Below, one piece after another: positions 8,280-16,795 of a DNA stretch of 39,668 nucleotides. Where the stretch lies: positions 1-39,668 of the forward strand of contig NZ_FXTX01000016.1 in the NCBI RefSeq assembly GCF_900182795.1, given 5' to 3'. The position numbers were made by a program, and so were the translations under genes. Source of the DNA: Venenivibrio stagnispumantis. Lineage in GTDB: Bacteria > Aquificota > Aquificia > Aquificales > Hydrogenothermaceae. A model generated the notes under the pieces. It ran no database searches. It saw only the letters and a program-made list of their open reading frames with translations, and was not told where the DNA came from. The stretch's first letter is position 1; every line of letters begins with the position of its first letter.

Positions 8280-9605
8280 TTATAACTCACTATGATTTAT
8301 ATAATTTTTTCTATATTTACCTATAAGTTCTAAAAGTTTTTTTGCTTGATATTCTCTCGTATATTTTTCCAATAATTTTATATTTATATCAAATTTTGGT
8401 TTTTCCTTGCTTTTCAATAAATTTATTAAGTGTTCCTTTATTTTATTCACATCTTTTCCAAAATTGATGCCGTGTCCACTTTCTTCTATTAATCGTCCTG
8501 GTGCTGATTTATTTGTAACTCCTATCCCCCATATTTGAGTTCCGGAAAAAAGATATTCAAACAATTTACCAGTAAGTATTCCATCAACATTTTCTGCTTC
8601 AAACTCTAAAAATAAAACTACGTGAGCATCTCTTTGCATTCTTAAAGAATCTTCTCTTTTTAAAAAGCCAAGATGCTTGACCCATTTTGAAACATTATAT
8701 TTTAAAATAAGCTTATCTAAGTTGTCTTTTCCTCCTCCAATAAATATTACCTCTAAATTATTTAGCAAATGCTTATAATTGGAATTATATATTTGTCGGA
8801 TTGCTTCAAATAAAGGTGATGGATCTCGTGTTTTTGTATCTAGTGAACCAGTATAAACCAATCTAACTTTATTATCTCCCCAAATTTTTTCAGCCGGTGT
8901 ATTTTTAACGTCTTCCAGATCGAATCCATTCTCTATTATTTCAACATTTGAAATACCATACTTTTCTTTTAATTGATTTGCAAGTGGTTCACTTACAGTT
9001 GTGATTAAATTTGCAGTAGTGTTTATTTTTCTTTCAAGATATTCTTCAAGGAGTCTAAATGGAAACAAACCTTTAAACATATGACTTTGGGTCCATAAAT
9101 CTCTATAGTCTGCTACCCAAAAACAAGAGGAATTAAATTTTTTGTAACGTAGAGCAATTAAATGATTTGCATAAGGAGGATATGTTGAAACTACTATATC
9201 AAATTTTTCATTTTTAATGACATTTAAAGCATCTTTTACCCAAAAATCAAATAAGTTTGGAAATCTTGCATCAAAAGATATTATACCTCTGGAATCAAAA
9301 AATGTTTTTAATTTAATTAAAATTAAATTTGTTATTTTATGATTCTTATTAATAATATGCTTGTCATTTTGGTATCCAATTTTATTTTTAATATTATCAC
9401 GAAATATATTTTCAACTTCAATAACCTTAAATTCACTTATATCAAAATTTAAATCATTTGACCTCTTTATTTTTTTTGTAGTAAGAACTGTTACATCATG
9501 TCCCATCCTTGACCAATATTTTGCCCAACTATAAGGTCGTAAAGAACCTATGGCATTCATTGGTGGGAAATAATGAGTTATAATTAATATGTTTTTCTTA
9601 TTCAT
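8280..9605 (-). CDS. Glycosyltransferase family 4
   Basis: Protein of 441 residues with two Rossmann-like halves. The N-terminal half has NILIITHYFPPMNAIGSLRPY and, later, FDIVVSTYPPYANHL with WVADYRDLW, a pattern common in GT4 enzymes of O-antigen loci. The C-terminal half has VRLVYTGSLD, EVIFIGGG, WVKHLGFLKREDSL and a donor-site segment around GKLFEYLFSG. It should act in the cytosol on a lipid-linked intermediate. The start overlaps the epimerase stop (ATGAATAA). Sugar specificity cannot be read. Confidence 0.83.
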   Translation of the reverse strand: MNKKNILIITHYFPPMNAIGSLRPYSWAKYWSRMGHDVTVLTTKKIKRSNDLNFDISEFKVIEVENIFRDNIKNKIGYQNDKHIINKNHKITNLILIKLKTFFDSRGIISFDARFPNLFDFWVKDALNVIKNEKFDIVVSTYPPYANHLIALRYKKFNSSCFWVADYRDLWTQSHMFKGLFPFRLLEEYLERKINTTANLITTVSEPLANQLKEKYGISNVEIIENGFDLEDVKNTPAEKIWGDNKVRLVYTGSLDTKTRDPSPLFEAIRQIYNSNYKHLLNNLEVIFIGGGKDNLDKLILKYNVSKWVKHLGFLKREDSLRMQRDAHVVLFLEFEAENVDGILTGKLFEYLFSGTQIWGIGVTNKSAPGRLIEESGHGINFGKDVNKIKEHLINLLKSKEKPKFDINIKLLEKYTREYQAKKLLELIGKYRKNYINHSEL

Positions 9606-10818
9606 TTATCAACTCCCCCACTATTTTCCCACTTGCCCTACCATCACCATATAAATTTAGTGGATAGTGGTTAGTGGTTAGTGGTAGGTTATTTGTAAAT
9701 TTTCTATAAGCTCCTAAGATTTTTTCTTTCTCTGCTCCCGCTAAGATATTTGCTCCTATCTCAACCAACTCTACCCACTCTGTTTCATCTCTTAATGTTA
9801 TGCATGGTTTTTTGAAAAAATAAGCCTCTTTTTGAAGTCCTCCGCTATCTGTCATAACCATTTTGCAGTTATCTAAAAGCCAAATCATCTCTAAATAACT
9901 AACAGGCTCTATTGTTATAACATTTTTTGGGTTTATGTTGTTATTTTCTATTATCTTTTTTGTTCTTGGATGAAGTGGTAAAATTACAGGTATTTCTTTA
10001 GATATTTCTTCAATTGCTTCAAAAATATTTTTCAATCTTTCTATATTATCAGTATTTTCTTCTCTGTGGATAGTGCAAAGGATAAAGTGATTAGTGATAG
10101 TGGAGAGTGGAGAGTGATAGTGGATAGTAAAGAGTGAGAGTGGTTTTTTTGCGAACTGTTTATAATAAAGGGCTACATCATACATTACATCGCCAACGTT
10201 AGAGATTAGTTGATAGTTGTTAGTGGATAGTTTAAAAGGAAAGCCTTCTTTTTTTAGATTTTCAACAGCAGTATCTGTTGGACAAAATAGCCATTTACTT
10301 ACTCTATCTGTTAAAACTCTATTTATTTCTTCCGGCATTTTCATATTAAAACTTCTGAGCCCTGCTTCTACATGGGCAATGGGAATATGTAGCTTGCTTG
10401 CTGCAATAGCTCCGGCTAATGTTGAGTTTGTATCACCATAAACAAGCACCACATCCGGTTTTTCTTTTAGCATTACTTCTTCAAGTTTTATAATCATCTC
10501 ACCTGTCATTGCTCCATGAGATTTCCCACCAATCCCAAGATAATAATCCGGCTTTGGTAAATCAAGTTCCTCAAAAAATACATCACTCATATTGTAATCA
10601 TAATGTTGTCCGGTATGAACTATAATTTCAGTGATAGTGTTAGCATTAGTGATAGTGTTTAGTGATAGTTTTTTATTTTCTCCTTCACTATCACTATCCA
10701 CTGTCACTTTTCCACTATCCACTATCTCTTTTCCACTATTAAACTGCTTAATAGCTCTACTCACTGCACCGGCTTTTATAAATTGTGGTCTTGCTCCAAG
10801 AACGGTTAGGATTTTCAT
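9598..10818 (-). CDS. wbpI: Non-hydrolysing UDP-HexNAc 2-epimerase (WecB/WbpI family) carrying four repeat-derived inserts
   Basis: The enzyme core is clear: ILTVLGARPQFIKAGAV (3-19), HTGQHYDYNM (68-77), VYGDTNSTLAGA (126-137), HVEAGLRS (149-156), HREENTD (251-257), HPRT (283-286), MTDSGGLQKEA (322-332) and LRDETEW (342-348). Because wbpA, wbpB, wbpD and wbpE homologues lie just upstream, the likely reaction is 2-epimerisation of UDP-GlcNAc(3NAc)A to UDP-ManNAc(3NAc)A (WbpI). A plain WecB role is the alternative. At 406 residues it exceeds the family's usual 355-380. The excess falls in residues 26-62, 194-204, 226-244 and 375-387, each encoded by GTG-containing 7-base repeats. All catalytic motifs are intact, so the protein may still work. 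ATGA overlap with the upstream gene. Confidence 0.88.
   Translation of the reverse strand: MKILTVLGARPQFIKAGAVSRAIKQFNSGKEIVDSGKVTVDSDSEGENKKLSLNTITNANTITEIIVHTGQHYDYNMSDVFFEELDLPKPDYYLGIGGKSHGAMTGEMIIKLEEVMLKEKPDVVLVYGDTNSTLAGAIAASKLHIPIAHVEAGLRSFNMKMPEEINRVLTDRVSKWLFCPTDTAVENLKKEGFPFKLSTNNYQLISNVGDVMYDVALYYKQFAKKPLSLFTIHYHSPLSTITNHFILCTIHREENTDNIERLKNIFEAIEEISKEIPVILPLHPRTKKIIENNNINPKNVITIEPVSYLEMIWLLDNCKMVMTDSGGLQKEAYFFKKPCITLRDETEWVELVEIGANILAGAEKEKILGAYRKFTNNLPLTTNHYPLNLYGDGRASGKIVGELINE
9656..9690. repeat. GTG-containing 7-base repeat run, epimerase insert 4
   Basis: Plus-strand units AGTGGAT, AGTGGTT, AGTGGTT, AGTGGTA in direct succession. On the minus strand this encodes epimerase residues 375-387 (NNLPLTTNHYPL), between conserved family segments ending LGAYRKF and beginning NLYGDGRAS. 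Confidence 0.9.
10085..10143. repeat. GTG-containing 6-7 base repeat run, epimerase insert 3
   Basis: Units GTGATTA, GTGATA, GTGGAGA, GTGGAGA, GTGATA, GTGGATA, GTAAAGA, GTGAGA in sequence. Encodes residues 226-244 (LSLFTIHYHSPLSTITNH) immediately before the conserved CTIHREENTD. Total insert length keeps the frame although single units do not. Confidence 0.9.
10206..10233. repeat. GTG-containing 7-base repeat run, epimerase insert 2
   Basis: Units AGTTGAT, AGTTGTT, AGTGGAT, AGTTTAA. Encodes residues 194-204 (KLSTNNYQLI), just before the conserved NVGDVMYD. Shortest and most degenerate of the four. Confidence 0.8.
10629..10743. repeat. GTG-containing repeat run with internal inversion, epimerase insert 1
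   Basis: The left part reads AGTGAT, AGTGTT, AGCATT, AGTGAT, AGTGTTT, AGTGATAG; the right part is in the opposite orientation (CACTATC, ACTATCC, ACTGTCA, CCACTATCC). AGTGATAGT (10661-10669) and ACTATCACT (10687-10695) can pair as a hairpin. Encodes residues 26-62 of the epimerase, between KAGAVSRAIKQ and EIIVHTGQH. Confidence 0.88.
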
Positions 10819-12080: not shown

Positions 12081-13387
12081 TTTAATACCTCTTTTGATTT
12101 TGTTATAATTAACACAATTATAATAAAAATAAACAACAAAAAACTCATACCTAAACTTAACATCTTAATTACAAATAAAAAATCGTATGTTTTTAGAAAG
12201 AAAAATGTCAAAATAGGTAAAATATTGTAAAAAACTGCAAATATCAGTAAAATTTCTTGAAGATTTAATCGGATAAAAATTGTAGAAAGAGGAGAAGTTA
12301 TAAAATTTAAAAAAATCCAAGGAGTCATAAAAGAAGCTATCTGTCCAGCTAATTTCCATTTTTCACCAAATACTATACTAAAAATAAAAGGTGCAAATAT
12401 ATAAATTATCAAAAATATGGGAGAAAAAAATAAAATTGTTTTTAATATAAAGTTTTTTACTATATTATACAATTCACTTTCTTTCGCATTAGAAATTTTT
12501 TGAAAAAAAACTTGTGAAATAGAACTACCTATTAGAGAACTTGGAAACTGAACCATTCTGCGTCCTAAGGAGAATTGACCCAATGTAGCAACGGAATAGA
12601 AAGTATTTATTAAAATATTAATTATAGATTCTCTTAATCCATCTAAAATAGCATTTGGTAAATTATACAAAGGCAATTTTTTATATTTTTTTGCATTGGC
12701 TATAATTTTTATTTTATAGACATGATTAAATAAGTTCAATTTTTTAACATTTATAAATAGTTTAGTATTTGAAACCATTTGCGATATAATTTGCCCACTT
12801 ATAAGCCCTAATGCTCCGGCTTTTAAAAATCCTAAACTAAGTTGAGCTATTGCTCCTGCGATTGATTTATAAACATTTGCTTTAGCTAAATCTTTATATT
12901 GTTTCATTCTATTGTTGAAATAATTTAGCAAATTAAAGATCCCCATCAAAAAAACAGTCAAAGGAACAAAATATAACCAAGGAGATATTTCTTTGTTATT
13001 TAAGAGTTTTAAAATATAATCATGAAAGATTAAAATTATAATTAATAGTGTTAAACTAATAACTACATTTATGATAAATCCAAGTGCAAAAATATTTATA
13101 GCGTCCTCATCTTTTTTAGGAAGCATTATCGCAAGTTCATATCTTCCATTTGCAATAGTTCCAAATATAGAAACAATAGCCATAAACAAAGCAAATACTC
13201 CAAAATCTTCCGGAGTATAAAGTCTTGTAAGAATAGGGCTTATGGCTATGGGAATAGCCTGAGCTATAGTTGTACCTGTCATTAATGTTAAAACATTTCG
13301 GGTAAATTCAGATTTTGGTAGTAAACGTGAGGCGTCAGACGTGAAACGTGAAACGTGGAACTTGGAACGTGAAACGTCCTTAGGCAT
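12077..13387 (-). CDS. wzx: Wzx-type polysaccharide flippase (MOP superfamily)
   Basis: Membrane protein of 436 residues with about 12-14 hydrophobic segments. The recognisable start of the family domain is TRNVLTLMTGTTIAQAIPIAISPILTRLYTPEDFGVFALF. It should flip the undecaprenyl-linked repeat unit to the periplasm, where the Wzy-like enzyme polymerises it. Residues 4-21 (including HVSRFT) are not family sequence: they are the translation of the 7-base repeat array at 13323-13379. The start at 13385-13387 overlaps the stop of the four-helix-bundle gene (ATGCCTAA). No internal ATG occurs before the family domain, so unless a non-ATG start is used, the repeat-encoded tail is part of the protein. 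Confidence 0.88.
   Translation of the reverse strand: MPKDVSRSKFHVSRFTSDASRLLPKSEFTRNVLTLMTGTTIAQAIPIAISPILTRLYTPEDFGVFALFMAIVSIFGTIANGRYELAIMLPKKDEDAINIFALGFIINVVISLTLLIIILIFHDYILKLLNNKEISPWLYFVPLTVFLMGIFNLLNYFNNRMKQYKDLAKANVYKSIAGAIAQLSLGFLKAGALGLISGQIISQMVSNTKLFINVKKLNLFNHVYKIKIIANAKKYKKLPLYNLPNAILDGLRESIINILINTFYSVATLGQFSLGRRMVQFPSSLIGSSISQVFFQKISNAKESELYNIVKNFILKTILFFSPIFLIIYIFAPFIFSIVFGEKWKLAGQIASFMTPWIFLNFITSPLSTIFIRLNLQEILLIFAVFYNILPILTFFFLKTYDFLFVIKMLSLGMSFLLFIFIIIVLIITKSKEVLK
13323..13379. repeat. Array of degenerate 7-base repeats, consensus ACGTGAA, inside the flippase 5' end
   Basis: On the plus strand the stretch divides into eight consecutive 7-base units: ACGTGAG, GCGTCAG, ACGTGAA, ACGTGAA, ACGTGGA, ACTTGGA, ACGTGAA and ACGTCCT. 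It encodes flippase residues 4-21 on the minus strand and directly abuts the stop codon of the four-helix-bundle gene. A matching array lies just beyond the other end of that gene. It is far more GC-rich than its surroundings. Confidence 0.92.
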
Positions 13388-13750: not shown

Positions 13751-13816
13751 CGTGGAACGTGAAACGTAAAACGTGAAATGTGAGACGTTTCACGTTTAAC
13801 CTCTCACCTCTCACCC
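13751..13816. repeat. 7-base repeat array with an internal change of orientation (hairpin)
   Basis: Plus-strand units CGTGGA, ACGTGAA, ACGTAAA, ACGTGAA, ATGTGAG run into the opposite orientation ACGTTTC, ACGTTTA, followed by ACCTCTC twice. The turn forms an inverted repeat, AAACGTGAAA paired with TTTCACGTTT across a 9-base loop (about 13768-13796). The array separates the PIN/aminotransferase gene from the four-helix-bundle gene, supplies the stop codon region of the former and borders the ribosome site of the latter. Confidence 0.9.
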
Positions 13817-15360
13817 ATAATTTTCAAATTATCGATCACTTTCTTTATTTCCTCTTCCCCATACAGTGGCTCAATCGGTAGGCTTAATACGCTTTGTGAA
13901 GCGATTTCACTGTTTTTTAAATCCCCGAAAATTTCCATCCGGTTGTTTATAAAAACTTTCATCTTATAAAGTGGTACAGGATAGTACACCATAGTTTGTA
14001 TACCTTTATCAATAAACATTTTCTGAACTTTTTCCCGGTTTTTATCTTTTATTCTTATCGTATATTGATGATATACATGATAAGCTTTATCAAGGACTTT
14101 TGGAGTTATTATCCAATCTATATTTTGTAGATTTTCATCATAAAATTTTGCTATCTTTCTTCTTCTTTCCGTAAATTCATCTATATATTCCATTTTTGCA
14201 AGCAAGATAGCAGCCTGCAGAGTATCAAGCCTTGCATTGTAACCTATATGGTCTACATTGTATTTATCTTTACCGCCATGTTTTATAAGCATTGAGATTA
14301 ACTCATATAACTTTTCATCATTTGTGGTTATCATTCCACCATCGCCAAATCCACCAAGATTCTTAGAAGGGAAGAAACTAAAACATCCGGTATCTCCAAA
14401 AGAACCGGTATATTTTCCATCCCACTTAGCACCAAAGCTCTGAGCACAATCTTCCACTATAAATAAATCATTTTCTTTTGCAATTCTTACTATCTCATCC
14501 ATATTGCAAGGTTGACCATAAAGATGAACCGGAACTATACCTTTTATTCTTTTTCCATACTTCTTTATTGCCTTTTCCACAAGCTCAGGATTTATATTGT
14601 AAGTGTCTAAATCTATATCAACAAATAAAGGTGTTGCACCGGCTCTTAATATGCTATCTCCGGTTGCAGTAAAAGTAAAAGGAGTAGTTATGATTAAATC
14701 TTCTTTATCCCAATATTCCTGATTTTTATTCTTTATAGCCAAAGCCCTTAAAGACAACACTAAAGCATCTGTGCCGGAAGAACATCCTATGGCATATTTA
14801 GTGTCAATGTAGCTTGCTACTTTTTGTTCAAGCTCTTTAACTTCTGGACCAAGAATGTAGTTTGCAGATATACAGTTTTTCAAGATTGCATTTTCTAAAT
14901 CTTCAACATAACTTATATATTCAAGCTTTAAATTTAACAAAGGCAGTTTTTCTTCTATGTCTAAATTGAAACCATCTATATTTGTTGCTCTATTAAATTC
15001 TTTAATTAATAACATATCATTTGTTAATATAAAACAATCTTTACCTATTCTTTCGCATACAGAAATTAATATTCCATCTTCTATATCTTTATATTTAGTT
15101 GAATTTAAATTATCTTTGCCGGTTGTAGAAATTATGTTTATTTTATAATTTCTTAAAAACTCTTCTATTTTTTGATTTATGTTAGCTTCTTTTAAAAACC
15201 TTCTTAATATATAAAAAATTGTATCATATTGATACGATACAATTAAATATTTGAATTTTTCCTTATTTTTTTCTAAAAAATTTTTTACTTTGTTATGAAA
15301 AGATCTATCTTCTATGAAATAATCAAGCACTATATTTGTATCTAAAATAATATATTTCAT
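13804..15360 (-). CDS. Fusion of an N-terminal PIN domain to a DegT/DnrJ/EryC1/StrS aminotransferase (WbpE-like)
   Basis: One uninterrupted frame of 518 residues. Residues 1 to about 135 are a PIN nuclease domain: ILDTNIVLDYF with D7, DIEDGILIS with D92/D95, and ILTNDMLLI with D115. From about 139, LPLLNLKLEYIS is the natural N-terminus of a sugar aminotransferase; CSSGTDALVLSLRA (193-206), VEDCAQSFGA (302-311) and SFFPSKNLGGFGDGG (328-342, PLP lysine K333) complete its active site. The aminotransferase half fits WbpE, which makes UDP-GlcNAc(3NH2)A from the WbpB product. The ancestral start codon seems to have been lost at the junction. An internal start near residues 138-141, after AGAAGAAAAA, could still give a separate enzyme. 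The stop TGA lies in a GGTGAGA repeat. ATGA overlap with the upstream gene. Confidence 0.88.
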   Translation of the reverse strand: MKYIILDTNIVLDYFIEDRSFHNKVKNFLEKNKEKFKYLIVSYQYDTIFYILRRFLKEANINQKIEEFLRNYKINIISTTGKDNLNSTKYKDIEDGILISVCERIGKDCFILTNDMLLIKEFNRATNIDGFNLDIEEKLPLLNLKLEYISYVEDLENAILKNCISANYILGPEVKELEQKVASYIDTKYAIGCSSGTDALVLSLRALAIKNKNQEYWDKEDLIITTPFTFTATGDSILRAGATPLFVDIDLDTYNINPELVEKAIKKYGKRIKGIVPVHLYGQPCNMDEIVRIAKENDLFIVEDCAQSFGAKWDGKYTGSFGDTGCFSFFPSKNLGGFGDGGMITTNDEKLYELISMLIKHGGKDKYNVDHIGYNARLDTLQAAILLAKMEYIDEFTERRRKIAKFYDENLQNIDWIITPKVLDKAYHVYHQYTIRIKDKNREKVQKMFIDKGIQTMVYYPVPLYKMKVFINNRMEIFGDLKNSEIASQSVLSLPIEPLYGEEEIKKVIDNLKIMGER

Positions 15361-15902: not shown

Positions 15903-16118
15903 TTATAATCCATATTTTTCCCTAAGTGCATTTTCTAAAGCCTCTTCATCTGATATTTTTGATATGTTTTCTTTATCTCCATATATTTTTTTCAAAAAAT
16001 CTAAAAATTCTGTAGATTCCTCTTCTTTTATTTCTACTAATATTTCTTCTTTATCTTTTAACTCATCTACTAAAGGAATTAAAAATCCTTCCTTCACTCT
16101 TTTAGCCTTGATTTTCAT
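15903..16118 (-). CDS. Small antitoxin-like protein
   Basis: Protein of 71 residues: MKIKAKRVKEGFLIPLVDEL followed by an acidic, charged helix-rich half ending ALENALREKYGL. The short beta-strand start and acidic C-terminal tail are of the type found in antitoxins paired with PIN or RelE toxins, but I cannot assign a family. The ATG overlaps the wbpD stop (ATGA) and has GAGG 7 bases upstream. A PIN domain is encoded two genes downstream, now fused to an aminotransferase, which makes this a plausible former partner. Confidence 0.6.
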   Translation of the reverse strand: MKIKAKRVKEGFLIPLVDELKDKEEILVEIKEEESTEFLDFLKKIYGDKENISKISDEEALENALREKYGL

Positions 16119-16795
16119 ATCTTTTCCTCTACCGGATAAAATTTATCATTATTTAAAATATATATGCTACTGCAATTAGGACAAGAGATTTTTATTTCGC
16201 TGTCTTTTTTTTCTATTATATTACCTTTTATCTTATTTTTATTCACAAGCACAACACCACACTTACAAACCCAACCTGTTCTTTTTGCCGGAACTCCGGT
16301 ATATAAAGCATAATCTTCCACATCTGAAACAACGACTGCTCCGGCACCTATCATTGCATATTTTCCTATTGTATTTCCACAAACTATTGTTGCATTTGCT
16401 CCTATTGTAGCTCCGGTTCTTACCAATGTTTTTTTAAATTCATGTTTTCTTTCTATAAAAGCCCTTGGAGTTAAGACATTTGTAAAGACACAGGAAGGAC
16501 CACAAAATACATAATCTTCAAGCTCTACACCTTTATAAATAGATACATTATTTTGTATCTTACAGCCATCTCCTATCTTAACATCCGGACCTATCATGCA
16601 ATTTTGCCCAATTATGCAATTTTCCCCTATTTTGGTATTTGATAAAATATGAGAAAAATGCCATATTTTAGTGCCTTTTCCTATTTCTACAGGCTCATCT
16701 ACGTAAGATGATTCGTGCACAAAGTAGTGATTAGTGATAGTAGTTGAGTGGTTAGTGATAGATTCTGATTGGTTAGGTGTATTCTTTTTATTCAT
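16115..16795 (-). CDS. wbpD: UDP-2-acetamido-3-amino-2,3-dideoxy-glucuronate N-acetyltransferase (WbpD/WlbB family)
   Basis: Left-handed beta-helix acyltransferase of 226 residues. Family phrases are IGKGTKIWHFSHILSNTKIG (38-57), hexapeptide repeats through about 170, PRAFIERKHEFKKTLVR (110-126), GATIGANATIVCG (128-140) and TGVPAKRTGWVCKCG (166-180). Cysteines C177, C179, C205 and C208 could hold a metal. It acetylates the 3-amino group on the UDP-ManNAc(3NAc)A route; wbpB lies directly upstream and the WbpE-like gene downstream. Residues 8-25 (SITNHSTTITNHY) are encoded by GTG-containing 7-base repeats and precede the normal family start. The ATG has AGGAAAG six bases upstream, so this added tail is probably translated. 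Confidence 0.92.
   Translation of the reverse strand: MNKKNTPNQSESITNHSTTITNHYFVHESSYVDEPVEIGKGTKIWHFSHILSNTKIGENCIIGQNCMIGPDVKIGDGCKIQNNVSIYKGVELEDYVFCGPSCVFTNVLTPRAFIERKHEFKKTLVRTGATIGANATIVCGNTIGKYAMIGAGAVVVSDVEDYALYTGVPAKRTGWVCKCGVVLVNKNKIKGNIIEKKDSEIKISCPNCSSIYILNNDKFYPVEEKI
16722..16765. repeat. GTG-containing 7-base repeat run inside the wbpD 5' end
   Basis: Plus-strand units such as AGTGATT, AGTGATA, GTAGTTG, AGTGGTT and AGTGATA follow one another with 6-7 base spacing. It is the same sequence family as the four runs in the 2-epimerase gene 6 kb away and encodes residues about 10-25 of the acetyltransferase. Confidence 0.85.

Follow-up and report, generated by a model that had tools for sequence, protein, structure and literature searches.

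Rickettsia palindromic elements are palindromic repeats of about 100 bases that lie in frame within genes and are translated as surface segments. They form families of conserved sequence; the arrays described here keep their period and inverted layout, but not their sequence. Among simple repeats, heptads are the commonest longer type in bacteria (Mrazek 2007, as cited in PMC4692102 and PMC4679880), and the bacterial preference for exactly seven bases has been an open question since it was noticed in 2007. Described examples are TAACTGA in Beggiatoaceae (PMC4679880), GGGAATC in Xanthomonas and GGGGAYT in Nostoc (PMC4692102), as well as the tandem heptanucleotides of Calothrix (as cited in PMC4692102). 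The repeats of these two papers are mostly intergenic, with one heptad per genome; where TAACTGA is coding, it does so in the stop-free orientation and gives translations of the LSVISYQ type (PMC4679880). A different class, the intervening sequences (IVS) of 23S rRNA with an S23/IVP reading frame, for example in Coxiella, has been described as selfish and acquired horizontally (PMC4990558). There is precedent for heptad simple repeats, for heptads within coding sequence and for IVS elements containing S23 genes. PMC4679880 and PMC4692102 name no IVP, S23 or four-helix gene, and nothing on a link between heptads and IVP genes was found in the open-access literature, subscription journals being mostly outside the search.

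Here, we analysed a 39,668-nucleotide stretch of Venenivibrio stagnispumantis DNA (the window; genome size 1.56 Mb), in which a surface-polysaccharide cluster contains both a 2-epimerase gene with four heptad-coded segments and, 2.6 kb away, a gene for a 23S rRNA-intervening-sequence protein (IVP), with no second one found in this genome (Table 1). The arrays resemble the published heptanucleotide repeats (PMC4679880, PMC4692102) in consisting of 7-base tandem units that are dispersed, genome-specific, present in both orientations and occasionally located in reading frames. They differ from them in that four tracts occupy one enzyme, in that other heptads are found at the same loops, and in that inverted arrays bracket IVP genes. 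As in the 23S rRNA IVS (PMC4990558), an IVP gene is enclosed by complementary, stem-forming ends, but here it lies between protein genes, and its complementary ends consist of period-7 arrays with a heptad that varies by locus. We assign a probability of about 0.58 to the reading that the epimerase inserts belong, as coding members, to a class of 7-base tandem arrays found singly, as an inverted pair around a spacer, or bracketing an IVP gene, and that are kept where loops tolerate them. The data point to an overlooked, element-like repeat class able to rewrite proteins.

Table 1. Features of the window discussed in the text (positions in the window; a point in the strand column denotes no assigned strand).
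Feature	Position	Strand	Details
Non-hydrolysing UDP-GlcNAc-type 2-epimerase (WecB/WbpI-like), four heptad-coded segments	9598..10818	-	406 aa; PF02350, TIGR00236
Insert 4: heptad tract CCACTAACCACTAACCACTATCC	9657..9692	-	residues ~376-388, net 3-4 aa (377-380)
Insert 3: heptad tract	10085..10143	-	residues ~226-245, net ~11 aa (228-238)
Insert 2: heptad tract CTATCCACTAACAACTATCAACTAATC	10201..10232	-	residues ~194-206, net 5-6 aa (194-198)
Insert 1: heptad array, short spacer, inverted heptad array	10639..10737	-	residues 28-60, ~33 extra aa
CGTGAAA heptad array downstream of IVP, reading into flippase N-terminus	13326..13377	.	sequence
IVP, four-helix bundle, Avd-like, 119 aa	13380..13739	-	PF05635 1.4e-39; TIGR02436 2.7e-38; PDB 2gsc 6.2e-32
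CGTGAAA/TTTCACG heptad arrays upstream of IVP	13751..13815	.	sequence
TAGTGRT-type heptads coding N-terminal extension of acetyltransferase 16115-16795	16724..16776	-	sequence; 3mqg comparison

Heptad-coded segments in an intact epimerase gene

The epimerase reading frame has no internal stop, and its product matches PF02350 over the full length (2.4e-113, 379 bits, curated cut-off 30.6) and TIGR00236 (wecB) with 321 bits against a cut-off of 210. All invariant positions of the family are present in the alignment with relatives, which, together with the full-length match, places the protein in the epimerase family and bears out the claim of the earlier note that the catalytic motifs are intact. 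Both by sequence and by fold (TM 0.73-0.88), the nearest solved structures are 8sxv and 8sxw, those of the Thermus UDP-2,3-diacetamido-glucuronate 2-epimerase. The relatives covered, none of which belongs to the genus of the window, come mostly from Nautiliaceae and further Campylobacterota; with few exceptions, they are 352-378 aa long (n=88), compared to 406 aa for the window protein. Judged by its sequence, the enzyme is preserved despite the repeat-derived segments. At residue 253, the window protein reads TIHREEN; the relatives do not have Glu at this position, and most have Ala (TIHRAEN).

The DNA of every insert consists of degenerate 7-base units, TAGTGGA on one strand and TCCACTA on the other. 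Tandem pairs of the TAGTGRWTAGTGR type occur 22 times in the window (5.66 expected; maximum of 12 in 100 dinucleotide shuffles), and 15 of them are located in the epimerase gene. Tandem period 7 is above chance and above other periods, so that the inserts qualify as heptanucleotide repeats; the period-7 array of insert 4 has a score of 18. In an alignment with the 88 relatives, occupancy is 0-3% at residues 31-57 (insert 1) and 5-7% at residues 194-198 (insert 2). For insert 3, it is 0-1% at residues 229-238 and 18% at residue 228, and for insert 4, 2-3% at residues 377-379 and 26% at residue 380. The segments are thus repeat-derived and missing as such in nearly all relatives, as had been proposed, and their coincidence with degenerate 7-base units holds for all four. 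The wider ranges originally given as non-family sequence (residues 26-62, 194-204, 226-244 and 375-387) contain real inserts, but extend into residues with counterparts in the ordinary loops of the family. The core observation is therefore confirmed with trimmed coordinates, while its interpretation is supported in part.

In an AlphaFold model of the epimerase from a 48-row alignment (mean pLDDT 87.8), confidence drops at all inserts, to 45-58 (residues 31-60), 78 (residues 191-200), 58 (residues 231-240) and 66-78 (residues 371-390), suggesting that they are loops and agreeing with the proposal that they lie at the surface; we infer that their effect on the protein is neutral. Heptads also code for the beginning of the acetyltransferase in the window, residues 1-24 of which have no counterpart in 3mqg.

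Insert 1 differs from the others in its architecture. On the coding strand, positions 10620-10745 form a single uninterrupted hairpin (-38.9 kcal/mol; z -9.1; no shuffle out of 200 is as stable), in which a spacer of fewer than 20 bases separates the heptad array from its reverse complement. Folding of inserts 2-4 gave neither a hairpin nor local structure, and these are single-orientation tracts. A profile search gave no IVP match within the epimerase gene, insert 1 containing a short spacer only. Insert 1 would accordingly correspond in layout to an inverted pair lacking a reading frame, and inserts 2-4 to tracts of this heptad family in one orientation. Inverted pairs may be inserted or copied as blocks, with the requirement for an open frame and for freedom from stops filtering the survivors. 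Arrays would then persist in the epimerase because they lie in surface loops of a tolerant enzyme, have a total length that keeps the frame, and have an orientation or an irregular spacing that avoids in-frame stops. That each insert is a multiple of three, taken in the earlier note as a sign of selection, is circular, since it merely restates that the frame is open.

Since each 7-base step changes the frame and the gene is part of a surface-polysaccharide cluster, gain and loss of units could also serve as a contingency device that switches synthesis of the polysaccharide on and off. We consider this highly improbable: short, degenerate arrays such as these are less prone to slippage, there are four sites, one of them near the C-terminus, and the irregular spacing lets insert 1 dodge stops, as expected of a frame that is maintained open.

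The term 'spreading repeat' does not apply to TAGTGGA in its own genome. According to whole-genome pattern searches, exact tandem pairs TAGTGRNTAGTGR occur 8 times, 5 of them in the window, compared to 3 for a reversed-pattern control, so that outside the window the heptad is not above chance. Similarly, 4 of the 5 period-7 arrays in 424 kb sampled from the genome (27%) lie in the window. These counts rule out genome-wide dispersal of this heptad, which is not present in high copy. What does recur elsewhere is the class of heptad arrays, the sequence itself being nearly confined to the window. A TnpB-like protein fragment at the end of contig C1 (L158:2-769) includes a run of TAGTGRA heptads that is read in frame (KIVNSEEWKVDSEKIVV).

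Different heptads at the same loops of related epimerases

Several relatives have heptad DNA at the same loops, but with other sequences: CTTCAAA (L039 and L041), AGAAGGC together with CTTCATC (L043), CTTCACA (L047), AGAAGGY/AACCTTC (L049) and ATTCAAA (L050 and L052). A check for the same loops encoded by non-repeat DNA, which would have spoken against a repeat origin, found none. A fifth loop, at residues 289-302, has heptads in L045, L050, L086 and L100. Site-by-site averaging of lag-7 identity over the 88 relatives is uninformative because most have no array, and arrays were counted instead. Ten relatives have 19 period-7 arrays in their epimerase genes, compared to 2 for periods 5, 6 and 8-13 summed, and all 19 fall in the four loops or in the fifth loop. 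Across 769 kb of the relatives' loci, period 7 accounts for 17 arrays and every other non-harmonic period for at most 2.

Heptads within the loops of one gene are more similar to each other (5.43 of 7 bases) than those of different genes (4.37 of 7; permutation p 0.0006). This similarity suggests local copying or conversion between arrays; distinct lineages would have picked up different heptads in these loops. Read in the coding direction, most loop heptads lack stops in every frame, which does not hold for the opposite direction; the stop-free rule stated for TAACTGA (PMC4679880) therefore fits most of them as well.

Parts of the gene may also have a mixed ancestry. In a tree with the loops masked, it groups with L040, L044-L046 and L010, all without these four inserts, and lies outside the clade holding most heptad-bearing epimerases. 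The DNA of residues 1-192 is mostly closest to L040 and L044-L046, while the flanks of the insert 1 site are closest to L041. At residues 181-216, windowed DNA identity to L039 is 0.89 and 0.82, and that to L040 and L044-L046 drops from approximately 0.9 to 0.5-0.7 (0.49-0.74). Insert 2 is nearly identical in L039 and L042, adjoining non-repeat bases included. Because windowed identity switches to L039 at this point, recombination has probably exchanged the insert 2 segment, with inheritance and losses elsewhere as a possible alternative. Four separate events in one lineage, as put forward earlier, are not borne out, given that the insert 2 segment is common to Campylobacterota relatives and looks exchanged.

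These observations raise the prospect that the whole gene is a ready-made import, i.e., a recombinant whose loop segments came from Campylobacterota epimerases already bearing them, with no insertion in the lineage of the window. The near-identity of insert 2 in L039 and L042, the local affinity to L039 and L041, and the placement among insert-free relatives would all be in line with this. However, an insert 1 of this size was found in no relative, nor were the heptads seen in inserts 3 and 4, and L039 and L041 have CTTCAAA instead, making import quite unlikely as a general explanation. Within the reading of the inserts as coding members of an array class, exchange of loop segments among Campylobacterota would be an additional process.

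Inverted heptad arrays around IVP genes

The IVP of the window is related to Avd of diversity-generating retroelements. Its gene is bracketed by CGTGAAA and not by TAGTGGA, and the region with its flanks folds with a z of -3.2; no known RNA family was found in the region. Upstream, arrays are present in both orientations, and the inversion is therefore imperfect at this locus. Scored against the IVP flanks of other genomes, the inserts reach 14.0 for genomes of the same family and 12.0 for other genomes, a slight difference. No phage homologues of the IVP were found. Reverse transcriptase (PF00078) had no match in G000, G001, G008, G012, G020, G150 and G178; a reverse-transcriptase-driven origin, or a diversity-generating retroelement, was rejected, as the genome of the window has no reverse transcriptase. 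Two neighbouring genes are unusual: the flippase (13,387 to 12,077, minus strand) begins with MPKDVSRSKFHVSRFTSDASRL, encoded by the CGTGAAA heptads of the IVP flank, so that its start region comes from the repeat, and the gene at 13804-15360 (minus strand), which adjoins the IVP locus, encodes an unusual fusion of a PIN domain (residues 4-115) with a DegT/DnrJ/EryC1 sugar aminotransferase (residues 162-512).

At 70 IVP loci from three sets and several phyla, the flanks are period-7 and inverted. Lag-7 identity was determined in the 90 bases on each side of the gene and compared to that at 500 bases, and upstream and downstream flanks were scored for their reverse-complement match. For 41 loci from many genomes, lag-7 identity is 0.399 near the gene and 0.270 far from it (other non-harmonic lags approximately 0.28), and the inverted match is 15.6 compared to 7.6 for mismatched loci. 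The corresponding values are 0.384 versus 0.267 and 18.7 versus 7.7 for 19 loci of another phylum, and 0.475 versus 0.248 and 19.0 versus 9.0 for 10 named cyanobacterial plasmids. By contrast, 12 ParE-toxin loci in the same genome group, serving as control, have a lag-7 identity of 0.264 and an inverted match of 8.0 versus 7.6. An IVP gene between inverted arms is thus a property of the class of loci, with the window's own IVP as an imperfect case, and the heptad tends to differ from one locus to another. Among genomes that contain a relative of the epimerase, IVP genes are present in 6 of 9 with epimerase heptads and in 2 of 14 without (one-sided Fisher approximately 0.017, in a post hoc comparison that ignores kinship). 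The tie between heptads and IVP genes, seen in unrelated phyla and not in the control family, provides a concrete suspect for the preference for seven bases.

Arrays without an IVP gene were found in genome G150, where 300 kb contain 22 arrays, 7 of which adjoin five IVP genes (1.7% of bases). For 12 of the 15 solo arrays, six or more of the seven bases agree with an IVP-bracketing heptad of that genome, compared to 2.9 for letter-shuffled heptads, and none of 2,000 shuffles reaches 12; this places the solo arrays in one class with those at IVP genes. The same genome has seven inverted pairs without a reading frame between the arms, which are 60-137 bases apart; direct pairs with matching heptads were not found. 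One of these inverted pairs lies in frame in an acetoacetate-CoA ligase gene, adding approximately 38 aa relative to 4wd1. In G020, a genome of the same family as that of the window, a GDP-fucose synthase has a heptad insert of approximately 30 aa relative to 7anh and starts in heptads adjoining an IVP gene. These two enzymes are the closest parallels to insert 1. The spacers of the G150 pairs are mutually unrelated and have no conserved internal core, so that an element cannot be defined by such a core, and this candidate was discarded. Neither target-site duplications nor, within a species, paired empty and filled sites were seen, which also speaks against an element.

Plain local slippage, in which ordinary simple repeats expand where selection is weak (surface loops and gene ends), nothing moves and IVP genes merely tend toward repeat-prone spacers, accommodates the unrelated spacers, and also the wholesale swapping of heptads at homologous loops between species, as slippage with homogenisation would produce. 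Moreover, heptamers are over-represented among bacterial simple repeats, with polymerase contact length as a suggested reason (Mrazek 2007, as cited in PMC4679880 and PMC4692102). Slippage can give rise to tandem units; it does not produce inverted pairs such as insert 1, the IVP brackets and the seven pairs of G150. Nor does it account for the sharing of a heptad by unrelated sites in G150, or for the control, since ParE, a short gene family of the same genomes, has no such flanks. As a full account, we therefore regard slippage as rather unlikely.

A bolder form of the array-class reading, which we advance tentatively and would not yet back at even odds, is that an unrecognised class of elements, spanning phyla, has inverted heptad arrays as its ends. 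Its long form would carry an IVP gene, and short forms with a spacer would insert in frame into enzymes (the epimerase, acetoacetate-CoA ligase and GDP-fucose synthase) and create new loops, with the heptad re-made at each locus and period and mirror symmetry kept. In the array-class reading itself, too, the inverted arrays would act as ends of a mobile element, and the IVP may help to move or maintain it. If this is true, it would show how functional enzymes can gain segments from a repeat that has no fixed sequence.

Several loci illustrate the range of settings. On cyanobacterial plasmids (L288, L291 and L296), IVP genes with heptad-like flanks occur within CRISPR-cas operons; pairs of genes that enclose a plasmid IVP gene are cas6 with cas4, and cas10 with a cmr3-family gene. 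In L185 and L268, IVP genes lie beside what by eye are tRNA-like sequences, with heptad flanks in L185. In G150, inverted AGTCCTG pairs with 60-62 bases between the arms each overlap an open frame (L242:12235-12348 and L244:15466-15580), and a frame that by eye encodes a putative UDP-GlcNAc 2-epimerase has GGTCGGA heptads at its N-terminus (L246:17759-17783).
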